Shown: one piece after another, positions 48,968 to 62,214 of the stretch | Numbering within the stretch: position 1 is the first letter of the stretch | How the letters are laid out: the number at the start of each line of letters is the position of its first letter | Source: Cryobacterium sp. HLT2-28 | GTDB taxonomy: Bacteria > Actinomycetota > Actinomycetes > Actinomycetales > Microbacteriaceae | Assembly (NCBI RefSeq): GCF_004402495.1 | Contig: NZ_SOFH01000016.1 | Span: 62,001 to 126,000 of the forward strand | DNA length: 64,000 nt | Direction: 5' to 3' | The notes under the pieces: generated by a model | Seen by the model: only the letters and a program-made list of their open reading frames with translations | The model's database searches: none | Told to the model about the DNA's origin: nothing | Made by a program: the position numbers and the translations under genes

Positions 48968-48995
48968 TCGAATACGTGTTCGCATCTTGCTAGGC
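48968..48995 (+). promoter_or_regulatory. LexA box and promoter of recA
   Basis: TCGAATACGTGTTCGC at 48968-48983 fits the actinobacterial SOS box (CGAAY-N4-GTTCG). A -10 box TAGGCT follows at 48990-48995, so LexA would cover the -35 region. The leader to ATG 49191 is then about 190 bases. Confidence 0.85.
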
Positions 48996-49190
48996 TCCTC
49001 AACAGCAGACGTCGACGACGGATTGTGCACGTGCACCGCGGTTTCCGGCCGATGTCGGAGGTGCGGCGTACAGTCGGTTTTCGTCAGAGACAGACAGCGA
49101 ATGCCTTGTCGAGAGCGGCACCCGGGGTCTTCCCGGTCGCCGCGGTCGACAGCCTATAGGCGCCGAAACGCACGACCGAAGGAGTCCACC

Positions 49191-60805: not shown

Positions 60806-61510
60806 TCAGACCGAGCGCAGCACCGCCACGATCTTGCCGAGAATCTCGGCGTGGTCGCCGACGATGGGCTCGAAGTTGGTGTTGCGCGGCAGCAGCCAGA
60901 TGTGTCCGTCGCGCTGGCGGAAGACCTTGACCGTCGCCTCGCCGTCGAGCATGGCCGCGACGATCTCGCCGTTCTCGGCCGTCTTCTGCTGGCGGACGAC
61001 GACCCAGTCGCCGTCGCAGATGGCGGCGTCGATCATCGACTCGCCGACGACCTTGAGCATGAAAAGTTCGCCCTTGCCGACCAGCTGGCGCGGGAGCGGG
61101 AAGATCTCGTCGATCATCTGGTCGGCCATGATCGGCACGCCGGCCGCGATCCGGCCGACCAGCGGCACCATGGCCGCATCGCCGACCTGCACACCCGACT
61201 GGTAGCTCTCCGCACCGCCGGCCGCCACGTCCTCCGGCGACTGCGGAATCTCGATCAGCACCTCGAGCGCCCGAGGCCGGTTCGGGTCGCGCCGGAGGTA
61301 CCCGCTCAGCTCCAGCTGGTTGAGCTGATGGGTGACGCTCGACAGCGACGAGAGGCCGACCGCGTCCCCGATCTCGCGCATGCTCGGCGGATAGCCGCGC
61401 TCACTCACCGAGCGCTGGATCACGTCCAGGATGGCGAGCTGTTTCTCACTGAGGCTCTTGCGCCGCCTGGTTCCGCCCTTGTCGCGGGGACCGCTGCTGT
61501 CCTGCGTCAC
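60806..61510 (-). CDS. lexA: SOS repressor LexA
   Basis: The 234-residue protein has a winged HTH ([48 protein letters not shown], residues 19-67), the cleavage site Ala123-Gly124 (GRIAAGVPI), and the Ser158 (GESMID) and Lys195 (ATVKVF) dyad of the self-cleaving S24 domain. The GTG start at 61510 follows GAGGAG. It controls recA and probably the divergent LysM gene. Confidence 0.96.
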
Positions 61511-61612
61511 GATGTCGCTCCTCGTCTCGGTGAACCGGTCCTGTCGGCGGTCGAAACCGCCGTCAGACCCGAATGTCGGTGGCGTCTGGTTGATTCAATC
61601 CAGACAATCGAA

Positions 61613-61652
61613 ACTGTATCCATCTCGAGCACGATAAACAAACATCTATTCG
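61613..61652 (-). promoter_or_regulatory. lexA promoter with overlapping LexA box
   Basis: On the minus strand TTGTTT (61641-61636) and TACAGT (61618-61613) are 17 bases apart. CGAATAGATGTTTG (61652-61639) overlaps the -35 and is one base off the SOS pattern CGAAY-N4-GTTCG, consistent with autorepression. Confidence 0.65.
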
Positions 61653-61711
61653 AGTGTGTCGTCACATTTTTTTGGGAAACAACGGAAATATTGCTTGATT
61701 GTTCGAAGAAT

Positions 61712-61738
61712 CGAATATACATTCGGAACATAGGTTCG
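61712..61738 (+). promoter_or_regulatory. Two abutting LexA boxes ahead of the LysM gene
   Basis: CGAATATACATTCG (61712-61725) is a perfect palindrome of SOS type, and GAACATAGGTTC (61726-61737) directly joins it. They lie between lexA and the divergent LysM gene. Confidence 0.8.
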
Positions 61739-61775
61739 CATCCGGCTTTCCCGGCCGAGAGCCGGATGCGTTTTT
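61738..61775 (+). terminator. Terminator-like hairpin in the LysM gene leader
   Basis: GCATCCGGCT (61738-61747) pairs perfectly with AGCCGGATGC (61760-61769), followed by GTTTTT. It sits after the LexA boxes and before the ribosome site (AGGAGG, 61780-61785) of the LysM gene, so it could stop the SOS transcript early. Confidence 0.65.
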
Positions 61776-61791
61776 ACACAGGAGGTTCGAC

Positions 61792-62214
61792 ATGAGCACT
61801 GCAATCGGAATGACTGCCCTCGGAAGCAACGGGGCGCTCGACCTGGGCGCCGTCCGATCAGGCACCGTCCAGATGCCCTCCGTCCGCACCCGCCTGCACC
61901 TCACCCGACGCGGTCGAGTCGTCTTCACGACGCTCGCAGCGATCCCCCTCGCCGCCGCCGCGCTCGCCCTCGCCCTCAACGGCGGGATCGCAGCGGCGGA
62001 GGGCACCAGCGCCGGTGCGGCCACGGTGGCCGACGTCGCAACGGTCTTCGACTACGTCACCATCGCGTCGGGCCAGTCCCTGTGGCAGCTGGCCGAGACC
62101 ATCGCCCCCACCTCAGACCCGCGCGACGTGATCGCCGAGATCGTCAGCCTGAACCAGCTGCCTTCCGAGAACGTGCAGCCGGGCCAGCGCCTCGCCCTGC
62201 CGGCCAGGTTCTGA
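61792..62214 (+). CDS. LysM membrane protein, candidate SOS cell-division inhibitor
   Basis: The 140-residue protein has a cytosolic N-terminus (1-42), one membrane helix (about 43-68), a short Ala/Gly spacer and an outer LysM domain (87-138: YVTIASGQSLWQLAETIAPTSDPRDVIAEIVSLNQLPSENVQPGQRLALP). Its place divergent from lexA, behind SOS boxes, equals that of YneA in Bacillus, DivS in Corynebacterium and Rv2719c in Mycobacterium, which act on division during DNA damage. The function here is inferred from that pattern. The start has a strong ribosome site. Confidence 0.85.
   Translation: MSTAIGMTALGSNGALDLGAVRSGTVQMPSVRTRLHLTRRGRVVFTTLAAIPLAAAALALALNGGIAAAEGTSAGAATVADVATVFDYVTIASGQSLWQLAETIAPTSDPRDVIAEIVSLNQLPSENVQPGQRLALPARF

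Follow-up and report, generated by a model that had tools for sequence, protein, structure and literature searches.

Comparative analysis shows that selection acts at the RNA level on a small hairpin of Microbacteriaceae, located in the leader of a LysM gene divergent from lexA. We propose, at about even chances, that this hairpin forms a structured element close to the start of the transcript, that its tip is recognised, and that it would set the fate of a putative division-inhibitor mRNA.

The stretch of DNA analysed, referred to as the window, is 64,000 nucleotides long and corresponds to positions 62001–126000 of its contig (3.7-Mb assembly). It contains the lexA repressor gene on the minus strand (60806–61510), identified by TIGR00498 (239.3 bits) and by the Pfam domains LexA_DNA_bind and Peptidase_S24, and a gene for a 140-residue LysM membrane protein on the plus strand (61792–62214). 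The two genes are divergent and share one intergenic region, in agreement with the initial annotation of this locus, whose span starts at 61712 inside the first LexA-type box and ends at 62214 with the stop of the LysM gene. The protein contains a LysM domain (Pfam PF01476; score 23.3 bits, cut-off 20.9), with a hydrophobic stretch on its N-terminal side seen by eye. The YneA equivalog model NF010723 matches residues 86–138 only, which form the LysM part, at 37.6 bits and below its curated cut-off of 60. The protein is therefore labelled YneA/ChiZ-like and not YneA. A search of solved structures with the protein returned a top E-value of only 0.046. The named relatives that match it best are Cryobacterium proteins, and a relative is present in 57 of 57 Cryobacterium genomes, adjoining lexA in each. 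The gene is a fair candidate for a DNA-damage-induced division inhibitor of the YneA/ChiZ kind, and its product probably stops division.

The promoter of the LysM gene was predicted by eye. The −35 element TTGATT (61695–61700, plus strand) is followed after 17 nt by the −10 element TACATT (61718–61723, plus strand). A TTGA-type block occupies the −35 place in many relatives' leaders, and the TANNNT pattern of the −10 element is conserved. A strict consensus promoter scan reported no promoter in the LysM leader, and the two predicted elements thus rest on their conservation. Judged from the −10 element, transcription is expected to start near 61730, about 7 nt 5′ of the hairpin stem. The ribosome site AGGAGG is found at 61780–61785 on the same strand.

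Two LexA-type boxes overlap each other at this promoter, as expected of an inhibitor of the YneA/ChiZ/DivS kind. Box 1 (TCGAATATACATTCGG, 61711–61726, plus strand) overlaps the predicted −10 element. Box 2 (CGGAACATAGGTTCGC, 61724–61739, plus strand) includes an exact GAACN4GTTC (GAACATAGGTTC), and its 3′ end overlaps the first bases of the stem. Each has three mismatches to the consensus used, TCGAACN4GTTCGA, with three mismatches allowed. At such looseness the window holds 78 matches against 30 expected, so the boxes are supported by their position and conservation and not by their score. The pair occupies a conserved place in the relatives' leaders, and the two joined LexA boxes of the initial annotation are borne out. 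A further box with three mismatches lies on the lexA side (ACAAACATCTATTCGA, 61638–61653, plus strand), and a similar block is seen by eye in the relatives' leaders.

The hairpin is located between the LexA-type boxes and the ribosome site, at 61737–61770 on the plus strand. It is composed of a 14-bp stem and a CCGGCC loop (61751–61756), in the order CGCATCCGGCTTTC-ccggcc-GAGAGCCGGATGCG, and is immediately followed by TTTTT (61771–61775, plus strand). The initial annotation had recorded a hairpin and a T tract, which are both present, but its stem of 10 bp was an understatement. The hairpin alone has a folding energy of −25.9 kcal/mol. For the 72-nt leader as a whole, the folding energy is −29.8 kcal/mol, compared with −18.4 (sd 2.9) for shuffled sequences (z −3.87), and 1 of 200 shuffles was as good. 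The genome contains one strong hairpin site, with 59.4 bits, and the next distinct place scores 22.1 bits. A repeat family or multi-gene element was rejected on the ground of this single strong site.

The stem sequence varies among species while its pairing is retained. Stems in Cryobacterium differ in paired fashion, with arms such as CGCATCCGG, CGTATCCGG, CGTATTCGG and CGCATCTGG mostly opposite their complement. A Cryobacterium-centred alignment of 35 distinct rows, which were found through the protein and not through the covariance model and include four from other genera or an isolate bin, has 97.3% of its cells paired and two-sided changes in 7 of the 14 pairs. Its covariation is 0.309, against 0.182 for shuffled and at most 0.134 for slid versions. 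The family-wide alignment was assembled for diversity from 53 of 65 family loci plus four rows of the Cryobacterium set. Over 53 distinct hairpins, 98.8% of cells are paired, two-sided changes occur in 10 of the 14 pairs, and the covariation of 0.413 compares with 0.166 for shuffled and at most 0.108 for slid partners. The family rows were obtained with the covariance model, a choice that favours the structure. None of 500 shuffles reached the observed compensatory changes on any of five measures, and the slid versions were lower on all of them; the shuffled controls ignore kinship, whereas the slid control preserves it. The 65 loci come from 70 that were inspected, with L128, L130, L138, L143 and L144 left out for a different stem register. 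The loop of L130 is one base shorter, and the other four keep the tip.

The irregular pairs reveal which strand is under selection. Among 33 distinct Cryobacterium hairpins, picked by tip sequence like the rows used for covariation and spacing (54 of 57 passed), there are 30 G-U pairs, 3 A-C mismatches and 5 other mismatches; L046, with a shifted arm, was left out. A larger count over 78 distinct hairpins gives 64 G-U pairs, 7 A-C mismatches and 15 others; its rows were filtered for the loop, and the model that supplied its family rows scores the loop favourably and accepts G-U. An A-C mismatch on the mRNA strand is a G-U pair on the opposite strand. A DNA site with two-fold symmetry should show no strand bias, so the large excess of G-U over A-C indicates that selection acts on the transcript of the LysM strand. 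The rows are related and the counts are not independent events, hence they are given without a probability.

Of 57 Cryobacterium genomes, 54 carry the hairpin. The remaining three loci (L031, L037 and L039) have no tip, and L039 folds otherwise. A covariance model, whose E-values are rough, matches 212 of 398 Microbacteriaceae genomes from 55 of 85 genera (E up to 0.01) and gives no match in 186. One-by-one inspection covered 70 family loci with E-values better than about 1e-6, namely the 30 best matches and 40 more spread over genera. At all 70, lexA and a LysM match adjoin the hairpin. The exact tip TCCCGGCCGA is found in 66 of these model-found loci, and the tip is one or two bases off in L127, L130, L145 and L151.

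Family genomes missed by the model were also sampled. Twenty-three were picked, of which 22 have lexA; one leader is cut by a contig end, leaving 21 readable. One genome of the sample (G310, leader L174) was counted as missed by one search and matched weakly, with an E-value of 0.009, in the family search. Seven readable leaders (L163, L164, L168, L169, L170, L173 and L174) keep a terminal CCGGCC hexaloop on quite different stems. The hexaloop hairpin is absent from the other 14, where L178, L184 and L190 were judged by eye and L172 forms a longer hairpin whose 8-base loop contains CCGGCC. The hairpin is thus enlarged in three Microbacteriaceae leaders, L163 and L173 with the hexaloop kept and L172 with the 8-base loop. 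Leaders of the same gene without a hairpin are represented by L165, L166, L175, L178, L184 and L190, and the genomes of L178, L184 and L190, in which the hairpin is lost, are 1.4–1.5 Mb in size. Its absence from some Cryobacterium and family genomes indicates that the element is dispensable. Set against gene content, the losses form a comparison set that could reveal a lost partner.

Outside the family, the model gave six matches, four from an order search of 396 genomes and two from a class search of 296 genomes (the sets overlap), and none of the six has lexA or a LysM match in its 3-kb stretch. Spread beyond Microbacteriaceae was rejected because the outside matches have no such context. 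Seven regions around lexA from other families (L181, L183 and L185–L189) were also read by eye, and no such hairpin was seen on the side pointing away from lexA; a LysM match was not found in the L183 and L188 regions.

The position of the hairpin is fixed relative to the promoter. A TANNNT block lies exactly 13 nt 5′ of the stem in 110 of 113 loci, including 54 of 54 in Cryobacterium and 56 of 59 in other genera. The exceptions are L102 and L149, with a promoter-like block further upstream, and L150, with the block a few bases closer. L074, outside the 113 loci, contains another displaced hairpin further from the promoter. The distance from the stem to the start codon is 17–34 nt in Cryobacterium and 18–160 nt in other genera, as measured in the 53 of 59 loci with a recognised ribosome site. 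Fixed spacing to the promoter and variable spacing to the start codon argue that the element goes with the 5′ portion of the mRNA and not with the ribosome site. The hairpins of L102, L149 and L074 are farther from the promoter and weaken a strict 5′-end role. In L121, L125, L129 and L150, the foot of the stem runs on by eye into an ATCTT/AGAT pairing. The stem would begin a few bases from the predicted 5′ end in these four loci, whose genomes are 1.6–2.0 Mb in size.

Compensatory changes beyond controls and a constant lexA/LysM context characterise the hairpin as a structured cis RNA. In the proposed scheme, removal of LexA would allow transcription to start about 7 nt before the stem, a position derived from the −10 element. 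A stable stem that exposes the hexaloop CCGGCC would then stand at the beginning of the mRNA. A cellular factor, either protein or RNA, may recognise the tip, and this recognition would together with the stem set the lifetime of the mRNA or the efficiency of its translation. The inhibitor could then be kept low at leaky expression and be rapidly shut off after repair. The nearly fixed loop calls for a reader. With one hairpin site in each genome, the case for a dedicated trans-acting factor is less obvious, and a partner with other targets would need to read something looser, since the hairpin occurs once in the genome.

Other functions would account for part of these features. A stem near the first nucleotide might simply block decay from the 5′ end, with a loop that has no reader. 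Such a plain protector would fit the fixed spacing to the predicted start and the extension of the stem foot by at least two pairs, seen at 49 of 59 loci from other genera and at 25 of 54 from Cryobacterium, but it leaves unexplained why the tip is nearly fixed and is retained on different stems, and we consider it unlikely. The loop might instead kiss a second copy of the mRNA or an antisense RNA, as in SOS type I toxins. CCGGCC is an exposed, nearly fixed, G+C-rich hexaloop and holds the self-complementary CCGG and GGCC. However, no second copy of the hairpin was found in the genome of the window, and the complement of the tip, TCGGCCGGGA, is common there, occurring 70 times on one strand and 68 times on the other, too frequent to indicate a trans partner; a kissing loop seems very unlikely. 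The hairpin also abuts and overlaps LexA-type box 2 and keeps its promoter distance in 110 of 113 loci, as might a palindrome in the DNA to which LexA or another regulator binds. Such a site is highly improbable, given the compensatory changes in the arms, the one-sided excess of G-U over A-C, and the hairpins that stand away from the box in L102, L149 and L074.

The initial annotation regarded the hairpin as an intrinsic stop inside the leader, that is, a terminator or attenuator at which RNA polymerase would halt (61771–61775) unless allowed past. In the window the shape is that of the textbook, with a G+C-rich stem of 14 bp and −25.9 kcal/mol directly followed by TTTTT, and the four nearest relatives share it. 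The T run is seldom retained with the stem elsewhere. Five T residues follow the stem in 5 of 54 Cryobacterium loci, namely the window and those four relatives, and in none of 59 other-genus loci; four follow it in 6 of 54 and 1 of 59; and at least five T among the next eight bases, a looser count, are found in 8 of 54 and in none of 59. The stem is followed by TTACCAGG, AATACACA, AGACTCGC and other tails in other Cryobacterium species, and the tails of the 65 family rows most often open with AA (30), AG (11) or GA (10). An intrinsic terminator requires no fixed loop, whereas the loop here is fixed. No competing antiterminator is seen in the one minimum-energy structure computed for the 72-nt leader, which is a weak test. 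Termination is a quite unlikely explanation of the hairpin, and a conserved terminator as its general function was rejected, with the T run confined to a few Cryobacterium. What persists among relatives is the pairing, and the T tract of the initial annotation is restricted to the closest ones. Since both pairing and tract are kept in the latter, terminator activity is possible in the window's own small clade. The broader suggestion, that a LexA-box gene is subject to additional control in its leader, is upheld by pairing conserved across the genus and the family.

The upstream region contains a possible second damage input. The motif TGTCGGTG-N8-TTGATT (61574–61595, plus strand) reads toward the LysM gene and is the sole match of its kind in the window, against 0.07 expected. 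It resembles RecA-NDp, which has the consensus TTGTCRGTG-N8-TANNNT. The core TGTCRGTG is present in 100 of 113 leaders and in none for the reversed control, and starts 82–237 nt (median 177) before the loop. The −10 slot of the motif reads T....T in 95 of the 100 and TA...T in only 1, which counts against RecA-NDp. RecA-NDp is the promoter motif of the activator PafBC (PMC6789036, PMC8223512). Two WYL-domain matches lie about 1 kb from each other on the same strand of the genome, an arrangement that a pafBC pair would be expected to show. The PafBC-like motif is possibly a LexA-independent damage promoter that reads through the lexA control region. The further signal envisaged in the initial annotation could possibly reach the LysM gene through this motif, by a route other than a terminator. 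If the promoter works, its transcript would be longer and the hairpin internal instead of terminal. The recA leader in the window also contains TGTCGGAG-N8-TACAGT (49053–49074, plus strand) and a LexA-type box, TCGAATACGTGTTCGC (48968–48983, plus strand); both elements fit dual damage control of recA.

LexA regulation is commonly described as repression and release at the DNA. A family-wide RNA element at the start of a LexA-box transcript would imply a selected second control after transcription begins. The fullest form of our reading is tentative and rather doubtful: a regulatory RNA specific to Microbacteriaceae and absent from Rfam would lie close to the 5′ end of an SOS division-inhibitor mRNA, and a dedicated cellular factor would read its nearly fixed loop. 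Division arrest would then be under two locks, one being LexA and the other a partner acting at the RNA level, and a PafBC-type promoter might add a third input. The hairpin is small, single-copy and easily mutated, and its nearly fixed loop offers a direct bait for the partner.

Rfam release 15 contains no family that matches the window at its gathering score, and among 20 diverse relatives the search returned one RNase P gene only. A permissive Rfam search gave six matches, all far below gathering scores, one of which overlaps the hairpin (E 2.5). A lysM-Actino RNA motif, by its name located upstream of LysM genes in Actinobacteria, was reportedly described by Weinberg and others in 2017. 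To judge by this name, the motif and the LysM-leader hairpin might be one element. A literature search for lysM-Actino and neighbouring terms found no paper on the motif. If the two are the same, only the link to SOS, the test of strand bias and the spacing to the promoter would be new here.

The genes of YneA in Bacillus, ChiZ (Rv2719c) in Mycobacterium and DivS in Corynebacterium are linked to lexA. The three proteins are induced by DNA damage and inhibit division, and the passages that describe them make no mention of a leader hairpin (PMC3989709). The LysM candidate differs from YneA itself in its sub-threshold model score, which covers the LysM part only.

TisB is likewise a LexA-controlled membrane toxin with a second brake at the RNA level, formed by a structured leader and the IstR antisense RNA. 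In the LysM leader, the ribosome site lies outside the stem, and an antisense RNA like IstR is not known. The 5′-terminal stabilising stem of the ompA mRNA is also located near the 5′ end, but unlike it the LysM leader has a nearly fixed loop. A covarying stem and a conserved loop upstream of one gene family are features that the hairpin shares with the structured 5′-leader motifs in Rfam.
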